Below, piece by piece: positions 3,389 to 33,198 of a DNA stretch of 33,198 nt. The stretch is from NCBI GenBank assembly GCA_009602725.1, contig WELB01000044.1:565651-598848 (forward strand), read 5' to 3'. A program made the position numbers and the translations under genes. Origin of the DNA: Spirogloea muscicola. Lineage: Eukaryota > Streptophyta > Zygnematophyceae > Spirogloeales > Spirogloeaceae. The notes beneath the pieces are model-generated. The model saw only the letters and a list, made by a program, of their open reading frames with translations. It made no database searches and had not been told where the DNA came from. Positions within the stretch are counted from its first letter, which is position 1, and each line of letters begins with the position of its first letter.

Positions 3389-3390
<2 letters not shown>

Positions 3391-3434
<44 letters not shown>
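3391..3434. repeat. (GGC)n triplet run
   Basis: An uninterrupted run of about 14 GGC units lies just upstream of the last DUF1138 exon, probably inside an intron. Translations of it in any frame are homopolymers and should not be read as protein. Confidence 0.9.

Positions 3435-3711: not shown

Positions 3712-3750
<39 letters not shown>
3712..3750. repeat. (CCG)n triplet run next to an unresolved base
   Basis: Thirteen CCG units follow the N at 3710. A single N beside a triplet run suggests a collapsed or mis-sized repeat in the assembly, so the true length of this interval is unknown. Confidence 0.9.
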
Positions 3751-4114: not shown

Positions 4115-7100
4115 ATGCAAGCCTTAGTCCATCCTGAAGAGGATGAGGAGAAGGACCTGCACGCGGACAGTGCTCCTGCGGTGGTCAAGTACCTCCTGCA
4201 GAAGCAGTATCTGCTGACCGCTCTTGAGCTCCTCCACGAGCTCCTCGAGGATGGCCGCGCTGAGGACGCCAAAGGCCTGCAGGACTTCTTTGACGACGAG
4301 GACATGTTCCCTCCTCATCAGATGGTGCAGCTTCGTCGACTCTCAGGTCAGCATTCTGACCAGATATTGGGTAGGCCTGAACTCCGCTCGTCTTTGAGCG
4401 ATTTGAACTGTTGGAGACAAGTTCTTGTCAAGCAAAAGGCAGTGCACCTGTTAGGCAGGCCAGCTTATGCTTGTTGCGAGTCTGATCGTAGCATGAGGCT
4501 GCTGTATGCAGGCTTGGACGACGTTGAAGAAGCTGTTGAGGTAGCTGCTGCTGCTCACAGGGCGACTCAAGCAGAGCAGAAGCTGCACCTCGCTCTGGAC
4601 GAAGTTGCGAGGCTGCAGGACGAGCTCAACCACTTGCGCAGGGAGTCCAGCACTTTGGCAGGGTCACCGGCAGGTACTTGTTGTGGCACTTGGCACCAAC
4701 TTCTGGCTCAGCAATGGATGTAACTCTAGCTTGTAAAGTACTCACTGAGGTCAACACTGCACTTTCAGGTGCGGCCCACAGTCAACAGGATAACTTGAAG
4801 TTCAGACGCATGACGTTGCATACCATTGGCAAGCAGGACAATGCGGTGCAACTAGAAGAGGACGTCAGGCATGACCTGGATTGTGCTGTGAAAGAGTACC
4901 TTGTGAGTGCAGACTACAAGATGACTGCAATGACCTTCTGCGATGAGGTACAAAGGTCTTAGCACTTGCAGAAACATCTGTACGCACTGACTCTGCTTAG
5001 TTGAAGTGGTCAGTCAGGCAGTCAATGGCTGTGCCCAATATGTTGACGACATAACCCTTAGGGCTATCCACTTGTGCTGCTCGTCTCACATTCTTTGGTT
5101 GTCACCTGTCCTACTTCTCAGTGACGCTGTTGTGGTCATGGGATTGGACAGGTTGGGAACCAGGATCTTGACAACTGGCAAGGGTCTCATTGCCGGCCCC
5201 CAGATGCATTGCAAGCCTACTACAAACAATACTATAATTCCACCTCTCAGACAGTCCAGGTTTCCATTTTCTCGCCATCCTATGATCAGATGATTGTTGG
5301 AAGCACAAAGCACAGGGTCTGCAGAGCTTGGTGAAGCCAGGAATAGAAGGTCTTGTTGGGTGCTTGGGGATGGAGCGCCCCAGATACTCTGTAATCACAT
5401 AAGTGAGAGGTGATGCATGCTGTCTCAGGTCATGCAACAGGAATTGCAGCTGCTTCGGCAGGAGAGGGAAACTTTTGAGAAAGACACTGCCAACCTGAGG
5501 GCCATCTTAGAGTACAATGATGATGTTTCCAAGCAAAAGGAGGAGGAGGTTAGTGTTTGCAGATACTGAAACCTCTATCATATATATGCACCACAGAGGC
5601 TGGTCGTCATATGCCTCAATCTGCCACAGGATGAGGCTTGTGCACCCTTAGGCAAGAGCTGCTGCATGATAGACAGAGCGAATTGCTCCTGTAAAATGTG
5701 TACATGGCGCATCGATGTATTAGGCACATTCAATTATCTGACTTGACCCAGAGCATCAACTGCGCATCTTGTCAGCTTGTCACTTGGCTTGCTATAAGGA
5801 AGCATGTAAACCTTTTGGCTCCAGAATACATTCTCATGCTCCAATGAGGCAATCTGGACTTTGATGTGTGCCAATTGCATGTGAAGCAGATGTCAGAGGA
5901 AGCTCGTGTGCTGAGGCACGAGCTTGATGACCGAGCTGCTGAGTTAGACAAGCTTAAGAAAAACCTGGTCTTCAGAGAAGCGGATGACCGGGGTCCTCCA
6001 GTCGTTGTGCCAGCAGAGTCACTGGAGGGTCTCAACTTTGAGGAAGGAATGCCCAAAGACATAGCAGCTCCAAGTACCACTGCTCTTGCCGTCCCGGATT
6101 ACTCGCTGCAGCTGTCAACAGTAACACACGGCGATAATGTTGTGCAAGCTCCGGGTGTCACTGATGCTTTTGTGGCTGGCACCAATGGACATGGGCACTT
6201 CAAGCACCTTGACAAGGAGACGAAATCAGTTGATGACAAAGAGGCCCACGAAGACACCAGTCAGTCCTTCTACCAGGCATGACCCTGGTTGCTTGTGCCC
6301 TGTGCAAGTTCTGTGCAAAACCTGGCACTAGCAAGGAGTATGCTGATGCCTATCCGTCTTGTCTGCATACAATGCCCCATTTGGCCATGACTTGATAATG
6401 TGGTCTTATGGGTTTCATGCTCCAGGAGGACGAGTCTGTCATCATCATTGCGGAGTCATTGCCCAAGATTGTCCCAAATGTCCTTATCAACAAGCGCGAG
6501 GTGCTCCTTCCGTTGTTCATGTGTGCTATCACGCGCCACCCAGATGCTGAAGCAAGAGACTCACTGGCACACTCCTTGTTCAACCTGATAAAGAAGCCAT
6601 CCTTGGAGCAGCGCGGCATCATCATTGCCTGTTGCAAAGAGCTGGCTGAGCACATAGGCAAGGAGAGGACGGAGTCAGAGCTCCTTCCTCACTGTTGGGG
6701 CCAGGTCTGAAAAGACTCTGCCATGTAGAAAGATAGACCTGCTATTGAAGGTTGACAGCGTAGCGACATCTCTCATATCCTGCTTACTGAGAGTGCCAGG
6801 GAAGCAAGGAGTGTCAGATTGGTCAGTCATTGTCCTTGCTGTTCTGACAGGTCAATCACAAACACCCAGAAAGGCGGCTTTTGGTCGCACAATGCTGTGG
6901 AGAACTTGCACACTGTGTGCAGGCGGAGACTTGCAGCTCGCTCATGCTGTCAATGCTTGCAGAATTAACTGGGGATGCTGAGCTTAACGTCAGAGAAGTT
7001 GCAGCACTTAGCCTAGCCACGCTTCTGCCCCTCATTACTGATATGGACAAATATCCGAAGGTGAAGCTGCGCCTCGAAGATGAAAATGGAAGACAATCTG

Positions 7101-10100
7101 TGCACTGGTTGTACGATATCTCCAGATCATCTTCATCTCAACTGTGCTGACATTGCATGACGAAGTTAGATATGTCCTGAAATCTGTTGCATATGCATAT
7201 TGCAGGTTGAGGACCTCGTTCTTGGAGTGGTCTGTGACCCGGCCGGCGAGGTCGTAAAGATTGGACTGCAAGAGCTTGTGCCAGCATTGGTGTCTTGGGG
7301 CAAACAAGGCAAACGTCCTCTCAGTCAGTTCTTGCGATCTCTCCTTTCTCGACTCCTGGGACCTGTCCAGGTCCGTGCAACAGTTGAGCTGCTTCTACTT
7401 GTGTTTGCTTGACTGCTGTGAAGCTAGCCAGGCAAAGTTGAATGTGCTGGCCCACATGAAAAACTGATGTTTGGCCCTTTTCAAGATGATGTATGATAAT
7501 TGCAGAAGTATGATAACAACCAAGTTTTGATTTAACTTGGGCCCTGCATGCTCACCGACAAAGAGGACCATCCATGTTGCAGAGATGCTCTCCTGCTTCC
7601 GGAGTTGAGGGCTCAGTGGAGTCTCACATACGTGTGCTTGGGGATAGGGAGAGATGGGATGTTGACGTCCTCCTGCAGCTTCTGAAGAGTTTGTTGCCAG
7701 AAGTAAGACTAGCTGCTGTGAGGACTTGCCCAACAAGAACACGTCAGGAAGTTGCAGATGCTGAAGGAGACCAGGAGACACTCTTTTCTGCTCACAAGTT
7801 GAGCGATTATGCAAGGTGAGCGATTATGCAAGGTGAGCTATGCAAGTGCAGTACATTGTGTTTTTACTATAGGGGCACCTGCTCTTCTCGCACAGCATAG
7901 AAGCAAGCCAGATCTCAGTATTTCTAAAGTGGTAACCTCAAAATTTGGAATTGCCTACTTCGTGGCAAGTTCAGGTGAACAAAACCCTTGTTTTGCAGCA
8001 AGCAGAGCATGTATTAGTGCTGACGTTTTGTTAGTCCCTCATTGGTTTCCATCGGTGCTCTGCAGCTACTGCACATGTGATAGATAGACACTGGTTGCTC
8101 AATTGCTACCAGTGACTGCCTGTGGCGATTGTAAATCATGCATGATCAGTAGCATGGCCAGAAGGAGGCCACTTGTACATTGCCAGGGACTGGTAAAAAA
8201 GCTCAGTCCTTCAGCAGCTGAGAAAGGCAACTGAGAAGCATCGGCGTGCATGGCAGGCTTGGTGCTGAGTGGCCTGCTCTGCATTGGCTAGCTGTGGACT
8301 GTCTACCCTCTCTTCTGCAGCTAGCATGCATGCTGCAGCCACGCGAGGAAAGCTTGCGACGTCGTCTTTCAGATGTAAGCAAGTATAAGCAGGAGAACGC
8401 ATCACTCTACATTCTGCAGCGTACATCCTGTTTCCGTGTAGTTTGGATGTCGACCAGGGGTATTGACGTTGTCAAGTCGAACCTTCCTTTCAGGTACTTT
8501 TAGGCGTAAGTGACCAATTTGGTCAGAGCTATTTGGTCAACATCATGCTTCCAGTTTTCCGAGCAGCGGTTGGGGCTGACTATGATGTTTCATTCCTTCC
8601 CGCAACAATGCAGCAACAACTTTCAGGTACTTCAATCACTGCATGGCAACATGCAGGAACAGAAAGAGCAGCATGGCATCAAGTCTCATCTCCTCAAGAG
8701 GACCTGGGCATGAGCAAATCTCTCGTTCCTTGACTACACTTGAAAGGTCTGACTTTGATGATTAGAACCTGACAGTGCCAATTATATGACTTTCATCTGG
8801 CAGACCTCAAGCCCTCCTCACCTATGGAGGAGCGATTGGCCAATGCCACTGTTCTACCTCTTCTCCTGGCTGGTGTTATGGGCTCTCCACAGATGACAGA
8901 GGGTGCACTTGCAAGTTGCCTTAAGGATCTTGTGCTCCAATCCTGCCAGAGACTAGGGGCATGGAGTGAAAGAGACAACCAAGAGTATGTTGACGCAGTT
9001 CGATTCTTATGGTAAGTGACATGAGTGATTGTTGTCACGATCATCTCAACCCTTGCCCTTTGGAGACTGCAAGATAGCTTCCAGAAGGATAGCTAGCGTG
9101 CTATCACGCAAGCAGATTTGTCTTGTCTCCACAATGAGTGGACTGCACCCAGCCAGCGGTTCTCCTCAGTCCTCCTGGCTTAAGCATTGTTTGGCATGCT
9201 TTGCCAGTTTGTACGAGCAGCATCACCATGTGGTTCTCGGTGTCTTGTGGGAGCTGGTGGTCATGGCAAATTCAGCCATCAAGGTCACCGCTGCTGTTCT
9301 GCTGAAGGCAATGGTAGGCTTGGACTTCACCTCTCTGAATTGAATAAGCAGCAGTGTGCAAGTTTCTGTAACGTTCCAGCCCCTGACGAGCCACATGTAT
9401 AGCCACATGTAATGGCAGCACCATCAGACTGATCATATTGATGCAGCCTAGCCTGCTGTATCAGATTCTTGAATCGGCTGATGGTATGCCTTCACAAAGC
9501 ATGTGAATAGGTGTGGTGGTTCTTCACAGTGGTGGCAAAACCTCTGTCTCTGACATATCTCCCCCTCAGACACCGTATGCAGGACAAGCCAAAGTTAGTC
9601 AACAGATCTTACCAGCTTTAGTCACGCTGGGCTCCGACCCGAATATTGAAGTCAAGTACTCCACAATTGCTGCTTTTGGCGTTGTTGTACAACACTACAA
9701 GGATGATATGGTTTGATACTTGGCCTGATCTGGCAACTGTACAACAATTGATCTTGTTTCAGTCATTGTCGAGCTAGCTGTATATATTTAGCCTTTACAC
9801 TCTCACAACCAGGGGTCGTACCTTTCCTTGTAGAATTTGCAAGATATTGAATATTGTGCTACTGTACTGGTGGCCATGTTCTGCAGACAGTGGACAAAGT
9901 TCGAGTGCAGCTAGAAACATTCCTGGAAGATGGTTCCCACGAGGCAAGCCTCGCTGTGATTCGCACGCTGACAGCAGCTGTTGCTGTGACCACAGCAAGC
10001 CTCCGAGAATATATCCTTTCTTGTTTTCCAAGGCTGGCAATCTTGGCAGGCTGTGCAACTTCATTCAGAAGTCTGCAGTTCGCACTTTCACAGCTGTGTT

Positions 10101-10931
10101 GTTCAATTAGACTCCAATGATTGGGCAGTTCTTGTTTGGCTCCTTGACAATCTCTGCACTCCTCGTCCAGAAAGTGCTGCAGATGGCTTCAAGCAGCAGT
10201 GTGGATCAGGACCTCGCGCGCCGTCGCGCAAGAGTGGAGATTTTGAGTGAAGCGATGAAGGCAGTGGACAAAACAGGTAACCCTTAATACTCAGCTGCAA
10301 TCAGCAGTCCTCTGTATGCACGTGGCATGTCTACTGGGAAAGCAGGCTAAGTATATACCGCAGGCCGTTGTCCTGTCTTTGGGCATGCTGAGTTGCTGAC
10401 CATGTGACCAAGAAGGGGAAAGCATGGGCTGCTATTACGAGCTCAACATGATGTGCCCAGTTGGACTTGCAGGCAGGACAAAATCATCCACCAAGCAGAT
10501 AATGACTTTGTCTTCTGCAGCACAACACCGACTACCAACTGATGCTAGTAGTGACAATGTTGGCAGATGTCTCAGCTGCCTTCTCGAGGGACCTCCTCGT
10601 GCCAGCTGTTCAGGCGCTGCTACGTGACAACGCACTGGAAGGAGCGGATAAGGAGTGTCTGGATGGCATCCTTAGGAACAGGGGAGGCGGGCCTGCAGCA
10701 AGGCACAAATCGGGCCTCTTTGGTGATGGTGGCCTGCTCGGGAAGAAGGATGCACAGGCCGACGGGATGGGCGGTGGCGAGGGTGGCCCCTGGGACGGTG
10801 GCGCGCTGTCGCCGGGCTCTCAGCCCCAGCAGGAGGAGGGGCGGCTCAAGCGCATGATGCGGCTTAAGTACGAGGAGATGGTGAAAGGCCGGAGTCGGCC
10901 CGCCACGCTCCCGCAGCCCTTACCTCGGTGA
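4115..10931 (+). CDS. RELCH: RELCH/KIAA1468-type LisH, coiled-coil and HEAT-repeat protein
   Basis: In mammals RELCH binds Rab11 and tethers recycling endosomes to the trans-Golgi for cholesterol transfer; the plant homologue At5g16210 is less studied. Exons: 4115-4346, 4512-4673, 4769-4947, 5152-5259, 5429-5548, 5890-6276, 6426-6704, 6851-7060, 7206-7370, 7583-7815, 8257-8374, 8494-8626, 8804-9011, 9208-9313, 9570-9710, 9887-10010, 10160-10276, 10567-10931. Phases close to 1128 residues, near the plant length. A LisH-like segment (about 20-50) is followed by coiled coil, a LisH (about 168-191, ending TAMTFCDEV), LDNWQGS, more coiled coil, an acidic linker (268-396), then HEAT repeats with PKIVPNVLINKREVLLPL, SGVEGSVESHIRVLGDRERW and ETFLEDGSHEASLAVIR. 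The C-terminus has GLFGDGGLLGKK. Intron 16 is of AT-AC type and intron 6 probably GC-AG. Introns 5549-5889 and 7816-8256 contain nothing recognised. Confidence 0.93.
6277..6425 (+). other. Probable GC-AG intron in RELCH
   Basis: Exon 6 reads in frame to CAG|GCATGA and would hit a stop one codon later. Exon 7 begins after CTCCAG at 6426 in phase 0 with EDESVIIIAESLPKIVP, a conserved block. The only donor close to the open-frame end that keeps phase 0 is the GC dinucleotide at 6277. An earlier GT donor inside the poorly conserved linker cannot be excluded. Confidence 0.5.
7801..7834 (+). repeat. 17-bp tandem duplication spanning a splice donor
   Basis: The unit GAGCGATTATGCAAGGT occurs twice in succession (7801-7817, 7818-7834). 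Each copy carries the same AAG|GTGAGC donor, at 7816 and 7833. The upstream donor gives the phase needed by exon 11; the downstream one would insert 17 nt with an in-frame TGA at once. Confidence 0.9.
10011..10159 (+). other. U12-type AT-AC intron (RELCH intron 16)
   Basis: The intron begins ATATCCTTTC at 10011, an exact match to the U12 AT-AC donor consensus ATATCCTTT. TCCTTGAC at 10141-10148 fits the U12 branch-site consensus TTCCTTRAC in 8 of 9 positions with its leading C, and the branch A (10147) lies 12 nt from the terminal AC at 10158-10159. Splicing joins GAA-T to TC-CTC and gives REFLVQKVLQ, which aligns without gaps to plant RDYLLSKILQ as I remember it. No GT-AG pair restores this frame. 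Length is 149 nt, phase 1, at residue 969. Confidence 0.88.
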
Positions 10932-11423: not shown

Positions 11424-12117
11424 CTAGGCTGCAGTGTCGAAGGCTTGGATGCGCTGCGCAATGAGCTCGACGGCTGCATTGGCAGAGGAGAAGGCGCCAT
11501 GGAAGCTGTTCCTGAAGCTGAAGCTCTCCAGTTCCCGCACCATCTGTGGCGCAGCTCCACAGCGGCGCCTGGCGTAAGGCACTACGATGGCAGCACTTTG
11601 CCTGTGTGATCACGGAGTGGACAAGGGAGCGACGATGGTGAGAGACAGTGAACACATTGAGCAATGGGCAGCAGCGCACCTGCACGAGGATGTCGCCGAG
11701 GTCGAGCTGATCCTCGAGCAGGCAGTAGCGGTAGGTGCGCGCGCAGCGCGCCGCGATCTCCACATTGGCCGCCTCGGGGCAGAACTCGTCGTCCAGCCAC
11801 TGGCGCAGCGCGCCGGCCAGCCAGTCCGACTCCTGCGCACCAGCACGCTCGGCTGCGTCCTGAAGGCCTGAGTGCCATGCTATCGGCAGCGCTGGCGGCC
11901 ATTGACGTATGAGCGAGGCGCCGCGGACCTCCTGCGCAGCCTCGGCGGTCCGCCAGGCCTCGGGCGCGCACAGCGGCTCCACGCCGCCGCGCTCCTCGCC
12001 GCCGCCGCCGCCGCCGTCGCCGCCGCCACCGCCGTGCTCCCTCCTCAGCCCGCGCTCCGCCCCTCCCTCTCGCCGGCCCCGCTCGCTCTCGCTGCCGCCG
12101 CGGCCGCAGTAGCCCAT
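11424..12117 (-). CDS. Unrecognised protein of about 162 residues
   Basis: I do not recognise this family. Three exons on the - strand fit splice sites and phase 0: 11929-12117, 11680-11859 and 11424-11543, with a TAG stop at 11424-11426. Exon 1 is a Gly/Arg/Glu-rich low-complexity leader ending PEAWRTAEAAQE. Exons 2 and 3 look like a compact helical domain with WLAGALRQWLDDEFCPEA, ARTYRYCLLEDQLDLGDI and MVRELESFSFRNSFHGAF, ending in NAAVELIAQRIQAF. No transmembrane segment or catalytic motif is visible. The start at 12117 is the last ATG before the N gap and may not be the true one. The gene points away from the F-box gene across the gap. Confidence 0.65.
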
Positions 12118-12142: not shown

Positions 12143-12721
12143 NNNNNNNNNNNNNNNNNNNNNNNNNNNNNNNNNNNNNNNNNNNNNNNNNNNNNNNNNN
12201 NNNNNNNNNNNNNNNNNNNNNNNNNNNNNNNNNNNNNNNNNNNNNNNNNNNNNNNNNNNNNNNNNNNNNNNNNNNNNNNNNNNNNNNNNNNNNNNNNNNN
12301 NNNNNNNNNNNNNNNNNNNNNNNNNNNNNNNNNNNNNNNNNNNNNNNNNNNNNNNNNNNNNNNNNNNNNNNNNNNNNNNNNNNNNNNNNNNNNNNNNNNN
12401 NNNNNNNNNNNNNNNNNNNNNNNNNNNNNNNNNNNNNNNNNNNNNNNNNNNNNNNNNNNNNNNNNNNNNNNNNNNNNNNNNNNNNNNNNNNNNNNNNNNN
12501 NNNNNNNNNNNNNNNNNNNNNNNNNNNNNNNNNNNNNNNNNNNNNNNNNNNNNNNNNNNNNNNNNNNNNNNNNNNNNNNNNNNNNNNNNNNNNNNNNNNN
12601 NNNNNNNNNNNNNNNNNNNNNNNNNNNNNNNNNNNNNNNNNNNNNNNNNNNNNNNNNNNNNNNNNNNNNNNNNNNNNNNNNNNNNNNNNNNNNNNNNNNN
12701 NNNNNNNNNNNNNNNNNNNNN
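12143..12721. other. Assembly gap (579 N)
   Basis: A run of 579 unresolved bases is flanked on both sides by very GC-rich sequence. It hides the start of the F-box/LRR gene, the shared upstream region of two divergent genes and possibly the start of the 11424-12117 gene. Confidence 0.99.
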
Positions 12722-15700
12722 GACCCGGCCGCCGCCAGCGACGATGGCGCCGCCGGCGGGCCTACCGCCACATCGCCGCCGGAGGCGGGCGACCTCGCCG
12801 CCCTTGACGAGCTGCTTGACGGCCGCGTCGCCGCCGACGTCATCCGCCTGGTGAGGCCGTCGACGCCTCGCCGCGCCGCCGCGGGCGCTGCCATGGCCCT
12901 GGCAAGCGCTCCTGGGATGCCAGATCGATCGCCGCCCTTCGCTGCTACAGGTGTATGAAGACGCGCAGCGCTCGCTGGAGCGAGCTGCCGCCTCGCTCCT
13001 CGCCCTCTCGGAGGGCGCCGGCAGCGGAGGCGGCAGCGGCGGCGGCGGCGGCGGCGGCGGGGCCGCCACGGCAGAGCAGGCCAAGTCCCGCAGCAAGTCT
13101 TCCGATAGAGCGAGCCTCCGAGTGGATGCCGGCGGCCGCGGCGGCGACGAGGACCTGTGGGACCGGCTGCCGACGGAGTGCAAGCGCCTGGTCCTGCAGC
13201 AGCTGACGCACTCCGACGCCGCCAAGGCCGCGCGGGTGAGGGCCCCGCCGCCGCTGTCCCAGCACCGGCTCCCGCTCGGCCAAATTGGGCAGCGGCCTGA
13301 TCTCTATGGCCACCGCTGGCTCCTCTGTGCTGCGCCTCACTCCTGCCGTGCTCCGCCGGGCATGACCGCCAGGTATCGCGGGAGTTTGCGGCGAGCGTGC
13401 GCTCCATCCGCGAGGATACCACCACCTTGGTGTTGCCGCCATCCGGCACCCCCGCCGCATTGAGCAGCCTGGTGAGAGCCAGCCGTCCGGGCCAGCCTCT
13501 ATCCACCACCCCTTGCTGCAAGTTGCTGCAGCCCTATCTGCCGCACGCATGCATGATTTTTAAGCCCTGGGCCCTGGACCGATTAGGTTAGGGTTCGGGG
13601 TTTGGGTTTCAGAGGTTTAGAGTTGGGGGTTGAAGGTTCATTCAGCCTATTCTAATTACTAACTAGACTAGCAAATCAATTGTCCGATATAAGTTAAGGC
13701 ACTTCAGATGCATTACGTCATTGATACACCAAACATCCTCAGCTCGCTACCGGAGAAAGTCATGAGTTCCAGTAACTGCCAGGATACACCACCAAGCTCA
13801 CGGTGTCTAAATAGCCTTCACCTCAGTACCTGAGACATTCCTACTTGCTGTACGCCTAAACCCTGAATCCACGTGTAAATCACCTGAAGGCAGATTGTAA
13901 ATTGCCTGGAGCTATGTAGTCTATGTCGTGCATCACGTCACAGACATGCGACACAGAGGCAACCCCTTATGCGCTGCAGCAGCCGAGCCTGCTACCAGCA
14001 GGCTTCATGAGGTCGTCCGCTAGCCATTGCTTTGAAGGGCCGGGCCCTCTCACTAGCCAGTGGCAAGTTCTTGACAAAGTGCAAGCACGTGCTTGCAATT
14101 CATTGCTGCTGCGTGGCCGTTGACGCTGCGCACCTCGTGCATCGTTGTGCAGGTCAAGTCCTACCCATGCCTGCAGCGGCTCAGCTTCCGTCGATGTGGT
14201 GAGGTTCAAGAAAGCCCTGAATCATTAGCCTGTACCCTGGCCTGGGATTCCTTCCACCCCCTTGGATTGAGATCCCTCAGATCCTTCAAAAATCAAATCG
14301 GAATTTGCTGAAGTGTGGGACCGACCCCCTAGCTACCCATTTGCAGTGGTTGCGCTGCTGTGTCACTCCTTATCATCATCCTGAGACGCGCCAGAGCCAA
14401 TTGGCAGCACCTCATGCTTGCAAGTCGGGCTGCACAAAGCAAGCTGCGATTGATCAGCTCCAGGTATAAGTACTGCCGGGATGCAGCGCCCAACTTCATG
14501 ATGAGGCTGGCCCTGTTGCGCTCCGTGACACAGGCTCTGCTCCCTGAGACCGTACATTGCACTCTTGAGGCCATAAGGCCATTTTAATTACTGCTATTGA
14601 CATCTATCAAATCTCTTGGCGTCCGCAGGCAGGTCGTGGAAGGACTTTGGCCCCATCTTCCAGGCGGCAGCAGGCGGCAGCGGCGGCGTGTGCTCGCGGT
14701 CGCTGCAGAGCATCGACCTCCGCAACTGTTCCCATCTCACGGACGCAGATGTCGCGCACGTCGTGGCGCTGCACACGGAGGTGTGAAGAGCTGACCTGTC
14801 ACACTGCGCCGCACCTCCCAGCCCTGCACCTATTTACTTGGGTCGTGTATTGGTCTGACTGCTGCACGCTCATGTCTCATCTTGCTGCACGCTCATGTCT
14901 GCATTGCAGCTCACAAGCATCGACCTGAGCAACTCGGGCGTTCAGGACCGTGGGCTGCACTGCTTGTCCACCATGGGTGGCAGCCACGGCAGGCTTTCAG
15001 CGGCAGAGGGGCCCAGCGCTATCAACTTCAATGGTGCTCAGCTGGAGCAGGCAGCTTCAAGCGCCGGAATAATGGCGATTACTTCAGCCCCAGATGGTTT
15101 GTTCAGCTGGCAGGAGCCCAGGGCCGTTGCCGCAGCGATCGCAGCAAATCTACCGGCCAGCGGCAACGGCCAGGAGAGAGGAGGCGCTGTCGCAACAAGG
15201 GGCATTGGCGCCGTCCGATGTGCCTCCTGTGCGGGAATTACGGACTGGGGCATCCAGGTGCCGCTTCACTTGGGGCTGCTCTAAGCCAGCCCCAGGTTGT
15301 CATGTGTGCCGTGCTTCAATGGCTTAGCTCGAGTTCTACAGTCTGGGACTGAGGATCTGGGCTACCATTTGGGGGTTGGGTCTGTTGTCTGATAGAATAT
15401 TAGTTGTGTCATGAGTGGCATGCCCAGGACAAGTAAACTGCCATAAGAGCAGGCGCCACATAGTACAGGTCGTTTGTCCTCAGAGAAGGACTGCTCTGCC
15501 CGTGGATGTGGTGTGCCCCGCTTTTACGCAGACAAGTGGATGCCTGCTGTTGCTCTCAGCTCTTCAAAGGACGTTACTGGCAGCTGTGCTTGTTTGTCCA
15601 GGCCACTCCTGGACATCGTTAGAGAGCCAGCTCAGTAGCTGCCGGCAACAGCGTCTGCAGCAGTCTGTCTGTCTCTCGGAGCGATGCTTTAGACGTCACT

Positions 15701-24160: not shown

Positions 24161-24212
24161 GGCGGCTGCGGCGGCGGCGGCGGCCGCGGCGGCGGCGGCG
24201 GCGGCGGCGGCT
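24161..24212. repeat. GGC/GCC triplet run upstream of the ABC transporter start
   Basis: The run is nearly pure GGC with one interruption at about 24184-24188. On the - strand it would read as Pro, Ala or Arg homopolymers. No in-frame ATG exists in it for the ABC reading frame, so I place it in the 5' leader. A single unresolved base (24009) lies in a second GC-rich stretch inside exon 1. Confidence 0.8.
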
Positions 24213-27552: not shown

Positions 27553-30500
27553 CTACTGCCGGTCAGTTGATGTGACAGACAGAGCCTTCTGCTCCAGGCG
27601 CTCATTCCAGTTGAGGCACCGGACCAGTGACCGGAACCAGTCATCGGTTTGGTCGGACTTGTTCACGGTGGGCATTGGGTGCTCGCTCATGCAGATGCGC
27701 ACTGAGTCTCCCTTAGAAAGCTGCTGCCGCTTCTTTCCATCAAAAGATACCCAGGCGTTGTTACGTGCATCCTTGGGCACCTGTAATTGACCACAAGCGA
27801 AGACCTTGGCAGTACTGAGAACGAGCTAATCTTCTCTATCAGACCACATATATACAGCTGGACTGCACAATCCTATCCAGGTATAGCTGATTATAAGTCT
27901 GATCTTGTCAATTAGAAACATGTCTGCACCATGCAAAAATATAGGAGGCGTTACTGGAGTACGTGATGCTCACCTTGAGCTCAAAGAGGGCAGAATCAGG
28001 AAGAATGACAGGCCTGAAGGAGAGCGAGTGTGGGCAGATTGGCGTGAAAAGCATGCAAGGCACATTAGGATGCACCTGCAGATTCCAGTACCAATCTGTA
28101 AGTGGCAAAACATTTGAGGAAGTGACAAGCAGTGGTACCTTGGTCTTTGACAATCGAAAGAGACCTTTCTGCAATGTGGAGCATGGCCTACCATAGAACC
28201 GCCAGCAGCAGTTGAGTACGCAGTGCTGCCAGTGGGTGTGGCAACCAACACTCCATCTGCTTGAACCTGAAAGTGGAAGGCAGTACTATCAGCGTCATCC
28301 AAAGAGTTTCCCACGGAAATTAATGCAATGACAGGCAGACAGACCGATAAATAGGGCTGACCAGTCCAAGCGTTTAACCTTGGTAATCAAGCGGTTGCGC
28401 TCGTAGCACTCGATCTTGCACAGGTACGGACTTGACCCGCGGTCCACAACCACTTCATTGAGCACATCAAAGATCTTTCCAGGAATAGGCTTCCCATCCC
28501 TCATGAGCTCGCACTTTAAGCGCATCCTAAGTGTGATGTACACTCCTTCCATGGTGTTGTTTCCATGCACAATTCTCTCCAAGTCCTGCTTGAAGTTTTC
28601 AAACTGCAGGACCAGAGACAAGACAGAGCAGCAAATCAGCTAAGTAACATGCATATCCTGCAGCTTCCATCAACTTCAATTCCTGAGATCCAGAATGGAG
28701 AAATGCATGTCTGACAACCTGTTAAATCTCTCCTTAATCTCTCCTCTCTTGTTAGAAGACCCAGCACGGAGTGGATTGCTCTTGGTCCTCGTATGATGGG
28801 GCATTTACAGCAATACAATAACAGGTGCACAATCAAAGAGGGGAACTGCTCAGGGCCATGACGATCGAGAAGCCTACCAGGTGAGCAGTCAAAAAGCCAA
28901 GAGATCCAAGGTTGAAGGAAACAATGGGTGGCACTGCTGAACGGAAGAGGTTGGAAGCATGCAGGATGACCCCATCCCCTCCCAAGCAGATGACAAAGTC
29001 CACCCTCTCGTGCAACTTGCTGAAAGCAGTGCAGTGTTGCTGTTGGTCTCAGAAGTGCAAAGCTCGCTGGGAGCTTAACTTGCTGAGATTGAGGCAACAG
29101 CTGCATATCAGTATGAAAGAACACATGGATGGGCCTTAGGATAAAATCTCACGCATACCTCGTGTCCTGATTGTAGTAGGTTTGCACAAAGCCAAAACCA
29201 GAGACACGAGCGAGCATATCGTGAACCTCAGGCTCTACTACCACATTCATGCCCTCGTGGTGATGCAACCACGAAGCCACCTGCAATCCAGGCAAGTCCA
29301 AGTGTGAGCTTCTCCATGGAGCTAGCTCTACATAGTGAGATGTTGGCAGAGTTCTGTAAATTACTACCCGTAATGCTGCTCAATTAAGCTGGTCAGGGCC
29401 TAGTCATTGTCACCACCATTGTTGGCAAAATGTGATAGTGGGAGTCAAGGGCAAAACTCACTGCTTGTGCTTCCTCCAGAAGCTCGCTGCCCAGCTTCTT
29501 GAGCAGCAGCACAGTCTTGGGGGGGGTCTTCCACATCAGCATCTGCTGCTGGGTGGAAGGGTGTGTAAAGGCCAGGGTCTTGTCCTTCACTCTCTCGCGG
29601 GTGCAAGAGAACCCGTCAGTTCTGACCAGATACATCTCCGCCTTCTTCCGCGACTGCACACGGACGACCCCTGTCGTACTTGCACACATGTCTCCTGTAA
29701 CTGAGGCAATCTCCTCTTCTTCGTCGTCAGTGCCGATGTCCCTTGCTCTGTCCTCCTCGACCTGTGAGTTTGTCAGAGGTCCACTTTCCAGGCCTCTGGA
29801 CAAATTCGAGGTCAAAGAGTCGCTGAGGTGACCACTGATGGTCCCACCTGTCAAGCTTCCGTTCTGTGGCAAGTCGTCCTCCAACCTTACTAGTCCTACA
29901 ACAAGAGGCAGGCTACTTGCCTCCTCAGGTTGCCTGTTCTCAACCATGGCATGACTTTCGGTTGCTTTGCCCTCCATCTCAGCCCCTGTGACTGCCACCT
30001 CCAACGCTGTACTTGACAGCAATTCTGACTTGTCGGCATCAACTCCTGCAGTAGAGCTCACGGCTCCATCCTCTCCTTCTCGTCGGTGCGACTCCACCCG
30101 TGGAATGCCTGGACCAGCTAGGGCCCAAGAGCCCGCAGGGCCCGCAATCGTTCCAGCCGCAACATCAGCTGCCTCCTGACCTGCACTTTTACCACCAGCA
30201 CTGCCAGTGATTCTGCGAGCCCTCCCTCTTCCTTGCATTGCAGAAGCGCCTGCCACCTTCCTGCTCTTCATGAATTTACTCATGCTCTGATAAACAACCA
30301 CATCAACATCAGAAGTTGGACAGACTGCAGGCATGGTCATTGACAACATGCCTAATGTATATTCTAGTCTTGATTAGTGTACGCTTACTACAGGCCAACA
30401 GGTGTCAGTAGCAGCCATTCACCAATACACCCCCTCTGTCTTAGCAGAACAATATCTTGCTCCTCACATTCCAGTGAGGTTTCTTTCGTGACTCCTACAA

Positions 30501-33198
30501 AAAGATTTAGTGGCAAATACATACCTGCTTGGAGAAGGCTCCAGGCCCAGGCCGCTGTGACTCGAACACGTTCGGCACTGTTGTCATGCTTAGATATTCA
30601 CTTTCTCGACTGTCCGCTTCTGATGGTGACGTAGTTAGAGCTGCTTCATGCTCAGCACTGGCAGTATGTGGTGATCTGTCACTTGGGAGAACACTCCCAC
30701 TAGCTTCTCCAGACTGCATCAGCGACTCCTTGACAGCGGTGGATGACAGTAGTATTGCATCCACATCAGCTGCAGGCGGTCCGGCCAGCTTCAAGCGAAC
30801 CACATGCGCAAAACCTGGAGCCTCAGTGCTGACCTGTGGACCGTCCTGCACAACTTCTGAGGGGCTCGGACCAGAGGATGCAGTACTCATTCCTGTGTAC
30901 ACTATATCTGAGAGCTCAGACGCCACCGTAGCTCTTTGACTGACGAGATCCTGGTTGGTCCTCAAGGTCATGGCAGGCAGCTGAGTTGGAGTGCTCGATG
31001 ACAGATGATGCTTCATTGGGAGAGGCCCTCTGCCATTGCTTTCGCCCCAGCGACCTGACCTTGAGCTGGCATCAGTGCCATTCTCCAGACCAGCTCTGGT
31101 CACATACTCTCGCCATCGAGAGACCATGGCACAAGCTCGGCCAACTCCTCCCTGCGAGTGCAAGTAGAGAGGCTGGTTGCTGCTGTCTGCCACCAGCCTC
31201 GCAAACTGCTCCACCTGCTCCTTGCTTGGTGCTGTGCCAAACTTGACTGGGATCCTGACGTAATTGATAGTGCCTTTTTTGGCCAAGTCCTCAATGGCCG
31301 GCTTAATCCACTGGTTGCTGAAGTCCACAGCCCGCATGTCAACAATGGATCTGAACCCTTCTGCCAGTAGCCACTCCAAGCCCTCTGAGGTCACCTGCCC
31401 GCCCCTCCAGAAGGCAACCTCCTCGTCCTGATTGATCTTCCTTCCACCCCGAAAAGGGCGTAGCTTGACTGCTGCGAAGTTGGGGATGTCGGCACTGTTT
31501 GGTGCGCCAGGCAGCCTAGGAAACCCAGCATCAAGAGTCACGTTCTTCAACCGCTCCAGGCGCTTCTTCACTGCCTGCGTCTTCTCTCCGTGATCTGGCA
31601 ATGTGACCTCCAATGTCCACTGTGCCAGTCACACACACTCAATCTCAGAACAAAGAGCAAAGCTATGTACACGCGTTGGGCACCCCTACCTTTCCATCAT
31701 CAAGTGCCCTTGTGTTTGTGTGGACAGTGCCGTATATCCGAGGAACTGAATATAGCATCATGCAAACCAGCAGCACTACAAGACCTGGAGGACTGCATCT
31801 GCCAGTCCTGTGTCCCATGGAGGGAAACTAACCTGCAACTCTTTGCAGCAACCCTGAAGCTCCTGCCTCAACACTGCAAGCGGAGGCAGCTCATTGCTTC
31901 CCACAGCGACGTCTCCGACCACGGTCTGACGGGAGCCTGTGTCCAAGTTGGCAGCCCGGCCCAGCACTGTAAGGCGCCCTGTCTGCAGCACCGAGCCAAT
32001 CTTCGCAAGGCCCGATATTATCTTCTCCTCTGCGCTTGACAGAGACGAGTAAGAGCCAGCAGCTTCAGAGAAGGAGCTGGTGTAAGTCCTAGAGCGAGCA
32101 CTAGAGCAGCCCTTCACCTCCTCCTTCCTGATCAGAGCGAGCAGCATTACCAACAGAGGCCAATTGGCACAAAGACTTGGTTTATCATAGTAAACCAGTT
32201 CTAGCTCAATTCAAGTGTTGTGCTTGTATCAAGTTGTAAGTGCTTGTGTCAAGTTGTCATCGTCAAGTGCAGCAGACCTGTCTCAGATATGTCCCCCCTC
32301 TCTGGCTCATCTGGCAGCCTTCTTGCAGCCCAGCCTCCATTGTCGGCTGGGGCATTTGCAAGTTCCTTAAGGGCCTCCATCACTGCTGCATGAAGCTCCT
32401 CAGCTAGGCGGTAGATCCGGCAAAACGCTTCAACCTCCGCAACATCACCAGGTGGGGGTCCATTCCTGAAGAGGCGCGACTCCTCCTCTTGGGCCTGCCA
32501 TCATCATTTGACCATGCAGTGCACGTCGCTGACTCAATCCTCTGCAAGCAGCCTCTGGCACTTGATGCGTGGTGAATGTGAAATTATGGCCGATGTGCCC
32601 TGTATGCACTGCATCAGCATGCTCACTACCATCACGCATAAGAAATGAGCTCTGTGGTTTTGTTGGATGCTTCTACTATGCCTAATTATTGTACCTGTCA
32701 AATCTATGCAACCTCAACCTCGTGCTTTATCACGACAAATGACAAGTCCGCAGCACGGCTTGACAGCTAGTGACTGTGCCAATGAGGTCTAATGCTTTAG
32801 CCAGGGGAGTATACAGGCAAATGTGCAAGTTAGGTCTGACGGAAGCTAAGACACAGTAGGAGCAGCTCAGTTATTCCATGGGCTCTTTCGGAGCAGATCG
32901 GAGTCGGGGAACCTCGGAAGGGCTTTGGCGTCAGTCATCACCTGCAGCTGCACGCTCTGCTCGTAGGTCATTGAGGTGCCCCACTCGGTGTCGAAGGCGG
33001 CCATCACGGCACGACCACCCTCGCCTTGACGAGCCGCTCTCCGCAAGCGCGCCGCCCCGCCGAGGTTCGGCTGCGAGGAGGGCGTAGCCGTCGTTGGGAC
33101 CCGCAGCGACGCCCTCGAGGCGGAGCGGCGGCTGCGGCTGGCGGACCGCTGCGGCAGCAGCCGGGCCGACGGGCCCGCCGGCGCGCTGCAGGTGACGC
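27553..33198 (-). CDS. NADK2: NAD kinase 2, chloroplast type (5' partial)
   Basis: The enzyme phosphorylates NAD to NADP with ATP; plant NADK2 supplies NADP in the chloroplast and binds calmodulin. Exons in - strand order: 33198-32942 (partial), 32494-32278, 32029-31833, 31607-30525, 30286-29462, 29280-29159, 29019-28878, 28603-28379, 28266-28192, 28075-27974, 27780-27553, giving 1156 residues in one frame. The first exon is Arg/Ser/Pro-rich, like a transit peptide. A phosphatase-like domain has FWRGGQVTSEGLEWL and LYLHSQGGVGRACAMVSR, with Ser where active phosphatases have Cys. A Ser-rich linker (about 430-760) is longer than I remember in Arabidopsis. The kinase domain has LGGDGVILHAS, VVSFNLGSLGF-like IVSFNLGSLGFL, LVATPTGSTAYSTAAGG and SDQTDDWFRSLVRCLNWNE. 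The exon 32029-31833 acceptor was chosen by phase and is the least certain. Confidence 0.93.

Follow-up and report, generated by a model that had tools for sequence, protein, structure and literature searches.

A probable U12-dependent AT-AC intron in a RELCH-like gene of a streptophyte alga, and an altered U6atac in the same genome

A 33,198-nucleotide stretch of contig WELB01000044.1 (the window) carries a gene for a RELCH-like HEAT-repeat protein, and positions 10011–10159 within this gene are very probably an ordinary U12-dependent AT-AC intron of the nuclear genome of a streptophyte alga near Zygnematophyceae, judging from sequence. This reading is favored over removal as a GC-AG intron because of a rare combination of motifs, the presence of minor-spliceosome small nuclear RNA (snRNA) genes in the genome, and sister introns of the same type. 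A preliminary description of this DNA had contrasted its lineage with Chlamydomonas, Volvox and the prasinophytes; that contrast is void, since the plastid contig of the assembly is streptophyte and minor introns are already published for streptophyte algae, which makes the intron itself mostly ordinary. With the lineage claim fallen, the remaining point of interest is a U6atac RNA that departs from consensus.

The donor ATATCCTTTC at 10011 begins with the U12-type motif RTATCCTT, and positions 10140–10148 read CTCCTTGAC, in agreement with the U12-type branch motif TTCCTTRAY. The distance from the branch-site A to the terminal C, 12 nt, lies within the approximately 10–16 nt expected of U12-type introns. 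Exons joined across 10010/10160 give an open frame with the product ...SLREFLVQKVLQMASS... (SLREF/LVQKVLQMASS). The triple of RTATCCTT, TCCTTRAY and an AC or AG 9–16 nt further on occurs once in the whole window, against an expectation of 0.0075 per window for both strands (400 first-order Markov simulations). Pairing of the donor with the 5′ end of U11 from the same genome is predicted at −6.0 kcal/mol. Re-reading thus bore out the donor, the branch site 12 nt before the terminal AC and the open joined product of the preliminary description.

Sister introns were sought in the whole genome with the pattern TATCCTTT-N(101–161)-TCCTTRAC, which fixes donor and distance and so provides neither a survey of donors nor a genome count of minor introns. 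It matched eight places, one of them the window intron, versus three for a reversed control. Seven of the eight start with A and reach an AC 11–15 nt past the branch A, giving six further introns of the form ATATCCTTT...TCCTTGAC...AC in three gene families beyond the host gene (Table 1). The remaining match (L046), with C as its first letter and neither AC nor AG within reach, was counted as due to chance. Within two sets of paralogues, identity is 100% for the donor, 95 and 100% for the branch-to-AC segment, and 76.5 and 69.5% for the intron interiors. Pfam searches on the spliced stretches of three sister introns returned no match.

The genome (153,112,186 bases in 471 contigs) was searched with Rfam models for the RNAs of the minor spliceosome. 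Three copies of U6atac (85.5, 85.5 and 83.2 bits; Rfam cut-off 33), three of U12 (81.1, 80.1 and 80.1 bits; cut-off 53) and four matches to U11 (59.6, 57.2, 52.4 and 45.8 bits; cut-off 39) were found; a fourth U6atac row, under the cut-off, proved on inspection to be ordinary U6, and the window itself contains no Rfam match. U12 retains the entire branch-pairing stretch GUAAGGAAAA, identical here to the consensus of RF00007. U11 retains AAAGGG, as in RF00548, with AGAGGG in one copy (L011), and differs from that family in a U at position 2 and in its lower bit scores. Plant snRNA genes transcribed by RNA polymerase II and III are recognized by an ATCCCA element and its spacing to a TATA-like box. 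All three U12 genes and three of the four U11 genes carry ATCCCA at −75/−76 with a TATA-like box at −31 to −33, all three U6atac genes carry it at −67/−68 (with a TATA-like match in one only, at −30), and the U6 gene carries it at −65. The L011 copy of U11 is probably a pseudogene, since ATCCCA and the TATA-like box are both missing. The genes for U11, U12 and U6atac that had been anticipated for this genome are therefore present, all above the Rfam cut-offs, and the absence of every minor-spliceosome component, named beforehand as fatal to the proposal, did not occur; together with the motifs and the six sister introns, these genes back the U12-dependent AT-AC intron as first described.

Table 1. 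Positions of the features discussed; plain coordinates refer to the window.
Feature	Location	Strand	Basis or remark
AT-AC intron, U12 type	10011..10159	+	149 nt, phase 1; motifs and open joined frame
5′ splice site ATATCCTTTC	10011..10020	+	exact RTATCCTTT class
Branch site TCCTTGAC	10141..10148	+	motif match; pairs with GUAAGGAAAA of U12 from the same genome
3′ splice site AC	10158..10159	+	last C 12 nt past branch-site A
Upstream exon, 16 of 18	9887..10010	+	gene model
Downstream exon, 17 of 18	10160..10276	+	gene model
Host gene, RELCH-like HEAT-repeat protein, 18 exons	4115..10931	+	hand-built model, 1128 codons open
GC-AG intron CAG/GCATGA	6277–6425	+	host gene model
Sister introns, one family	L041/L047		joined product ...GGMRIQYSKNPFGRKK...
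Sister introns, one family	L043/L044/L045		joined product ...GVSVALSCALLFKYAGLSVYK..., one residue changed in L044
Sister intron, third family	L048		joined frame open two ways
U6atac with AGCCGA	L001 1501–1619	−	Rfam match
U6atac with AGCCGA	L002 1501–1620	−	Rfam match
U6atac with AGCCGA	L003 1501–1620	−	Rfam match
U11 copy without ATCCCA or TATA-like box	L011 1501–1639		Rfam match
Candidate U4atac	C27:603336–603368	−	kink-turn pattern match, 33 nt
Candidate U4atac	C81:366615–366647	+	kink-turn pattern match, 33 nt
Candidate U4atac	C423:19741–19773	+	kink-turn pattern match, 33 nt
Plastid contig	C392 (56,897 bases)		gene content from frames, several names by our own reading; nine frames put to Pfam
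Phosphatase-like frames (PTP-NADK, E 1.5e-54) and NAD kinase C-terminal piece	27970–31625	−

Turning to the lineage, the plastid contig carries rpoB-rpoC1-rpoC2-rps2-atpI-H-F-A and a trnK split by a group II intron with matK inside, in addition to psbA, trnH, a ycf2/ftsH-like frame, psbD-psbC, rps14, psaA-psaB, an odpB-like gene, chlB, chlI, tilS, ndhJ-K-C and atpE-atpB. The best PDB matches of its PsaA are 8htu, 9lut and 6l35, at 1649.5 to 1633 bits (next, 1606), and we take 8htu and 6l35 to be from moss. In most chlorophyte lineages the plastid is not known to carry matK in trnK or ndh genes; a chlorophyte origin was rejected on this plastid set, with ndhC-K-J and with matK inside trnK. Within the streptophytes, passages of Turmel et al. 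2005 (PMC1277820) date the loss of chlI, odpB and ycf62 to the emergence of land plants or shortly before it; they also place these genes in Chaetosphaeridium and describe the clusters rps4-trnS-ycf3 and atpB-atpE-trnV-trnM-ndhC-K-J as common to zygnemataleans and Marchantia. Both clusters, the former with trnS(gga), are found on the plastid contig, as are all three of the genes kept in zygnematophyceans, chlI, odpB and ycf62 (tilS). Excerpts of Lemieux et al. 2016 (PMC4877394) report that Klebsormidiophyceae lost ndhK, trnT and trnV(uac), that Coleochaete is without rps14, tilS and the matK of trnK, and that rearrangement has been extensive in the plastid genomes of zygnematophyceans; ndhK, trnT, trnV(uac), rps14, tilS and the matK of trnK are all present here. 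The gene content thus points to a streptophyte alga most like Zygnematophyceae, with Charophyceae less clearly set apart. As a separate observation, the recurring threes in this genome recall the whole-genome triplication reported for Spirogloea muscicola in part of PMC9065682.

Several results weigh against the U12-type reading. The motif triple does not recur in the 15 stretches adjoining the window (108,438 non-N letters). U4atac gave no Rfam match at E 1 (48 of 1771 first-look candidates scored), and zf-U11-48K gave none at E 0.01, a threshold too strict for a model of 25 positions. In all three U6atac copies positions 12–14 read GCC, versus AAG in the Rfam consensus, and the predicted pairing of U6atac with the donor falls to −2.9 kcal/mol, versus −8.2 for consensus U6atac. 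Finally, when donors at 9931–10120 were combined with acceptors up to 10230 and an open frame without stop was required, 100 pairs qualified, comprising 27 GT-AG, 64 GC-AG and 9 AT-AC pairs. The earlier assertion that the frame cannot be restored by any GT-AG pair was therefore wrong. Three of the GC-AG pairs score well in a U2-type matrix built from the other 16 introns of the host gene: 9944–10170 (the best, 14.4; 26 residues of the AT-AC product lost), 9944–10128 (12.1; 12 residues lost) and 10037–10170 (11.7; 5 residues gained).

Judged solely by frame and U2-type scores, the intron could be of the GC-AG kind. The major spliceosome could then remove the intron at 9944–10170 or 10037–10170, both of which leave the frame open and fall between the lowest and highest scores of the other introns of the host gene (2.4–15.9, each left out in turn), and the U12-like letters would be a coincidence or a relic; the gene model already contains one GC-AG intron (Table 1). 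We regard this as improbable: with 64 GC-AG pairs keeping the frame, chance should yield a fair score; the modelled U2-type introns of the host gene have GT donors with a single exception (15 GT-AG and 1 GC-AG); and neither pair accounts for the motif triple. The pair at 9944–10170 moreover comes at the cost of those 26 residues, and that at 10037–10170 has the weak donor CTG/GCAATC (3.9) and adds residues. Removal as a GT-AG intron, for example at 9986–10170, or at 10023–10174 with the product REYILSLLQ, would likewise keep the frame, and REYILSLLQ resembles RDYLLSKILQ, the plant string of the preliminary description, which is one residue longer. This alternative is scarcely credible, given that the top GT-AG score, 5.8 (shared by 9986–10170 and 9956–10170, with 12 and 22 residues lost), falls below all but one of the scores of the 16 other introns in the gene, and that 10023–10174 scores only −0.1. 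The AT-AC pair 10011–10159 itself scores 0.1 in the same matrix, as expected of a non-U2 intron.

An alternative of another kind concerns the source: the sample might have held a mixture, with the nuclear contig from one organism and the plastid contig from another, in which case the host might be a chlorophyte. This appears very improbable. Among eight PsaA_PsaB matches there is one full-length locus, with psaA beside psaB on the plastid contig, the other six being short pieces; the snRNA genes have their ATCCCA and TATA-like boxes at the spacing typical of plants; and the window encodes a PTP-NADK protein, of a kind known from plants.

Returning to the U12-dependent AT-AC intron, its excision would follow the order of events that is textbook for the minor spliceosome. 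U11 would pair with UCCUUU of the donor and U12 with UCCUUGAC, bulging the branch adenosine; U4atac–U6atac would then join, and U6atac would displace U11. Excision of the 149 nt would join CGA-GAA-T to TC-CTC-GTC (REF-LVQ). We infer that splicing takes place at 10010/10160, which RNA is U4atac, and that minor-specific proteins are encoded. For U4atac, the stretch AUAAGGACGG of U6atac would expect a stem II partner. A pattern composed of stem II and stem I letters gave two matches versus six in the control, neither of them U4-like; a pattern composed of the kink-turn and stem I gave five versus two. Three of these five share a length of 33 nt (chance approximately 0.05 by simulation), and these three loci are candidates for U4atac. 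One candidate for which letters are available shows AGATGCTAAC, a 10-nt complement of U6atac from the same genome that runs three letters past what the pattern demands (chance approximately 0.014).

The altered U6atac otherwise resembles RF00619 over its full length (85.5 bits), retaining the GAGAGAAGGUUAGCA core, the 3′ hairpin and the T run. Unlike that family, all three copies found have AGCCGA in place of AAAGGA, the segment that contacts the 5′ splice site. The first 68 nt of the copies are identical, and a whole-genome pattern search allowing up to two mismatches recovered the same three copies only. Incorvaia and Padgett are reported to have found that U6atac positions 14–15 pair with C5–C6 of the donor. 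Donors were compared with the pattern ATATCNNYT...TCCTTGAC, which leaves donor positions +6 to +8 free, at one distance range and with exact TCCTTGAC; it gave 49 matches versus 13 in the reversed control, 43 of the 49 with letters. Among these 43, ATATCCTTT occurs seven times and ATATCGGCT, whose letters suit the changed U6atac, once, so that within this distance range and branch site there is no sign of a donor shift matching the altered U6atac. The class ATATCTGCT, also with seven of 43, was set aside, as its members on C15, C128 and C182 share one sequence, by our own reading coding on the opposite strand.

Because U6atac is changed in every copy found while U11 and the donors are ancestral, we tentatively suggest, as a model we hold to be somewhat doubtful, that the minor spliceosome may work here despite a broken or moved pairing of U6atac with the 5′ splice site. 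The donor would in that case be selected by U11 and proteins, or through U6atac in a different register. That donors show no sign of having followed the change could reflect a weaker requirement for the helix, a shifted register, or a canonical U6atac in missing sequence. If expressed, the altered U6atac would be a natural test of the need of minor splicing for the U6atac–donor helix.

As for previous work, portions of a 2010 study (PMC2846911) hold green algae to lack U12 introns, Chlamydomonas being the green alga tested. Sections of a 2023 study (PMC10639083) report minor introns in Chara braunii (166) and Klebsormidium nitens (110), and its main text never mentions chlorophyte, Chlorophyta, Trebouxi or Chlamydomonas. 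The intron resembles those of land plants, Chara braunii and Klebsormidium nitens in its donor, branch site, short branch-to-AC distance and accompanying minor snRNAs (PMC10639083); as differences, U6atac departs here from the Rfam consensus at positions 12–14, and the lineage represented here is unnamed in the parts of PMC10639083 at hand. A search over part of the literature found none on U12 splicing in Zygnematophyceae. Since minor introns are known from both sides of this position in the tree, they are to be expected here, and the intron is consistent with their having been kept along the streptophyte lineage.

The host gene (4115–10931) was modelled by hand from its letters alone, and the name RELCH is putative. 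A HEAT repeat is found in the protein (PF02985, E 2.4e-13, Pfam); Pfam at E values up to 10 gave no LisH over residues 1–227, a search in which HMMER filters drop weak short matches. A search of the assembly with the C-terminal part of the host protein gave four matches, all of them on C44 inside the host gene, and no second copy. At 7795–7838 a 17-mer is repeated in 2.6 tandem copies and contains the donor AAG/GTGAGC, so that intron 10 opens with a closely spaced pair of equal 5′ splice sites.

Elsewhere in the window, the PTP-NADK and NAD kinase frames are probably one gene. Short (CGG)n/(GCC)n runs lie at 3389–3434, 3712–3750, 11982–12034, 13014–13060 and 24161–24211, and the 582 N of the window consist of three isolated letters and one run of 579 (12143–12721) within GC-rich sequence.

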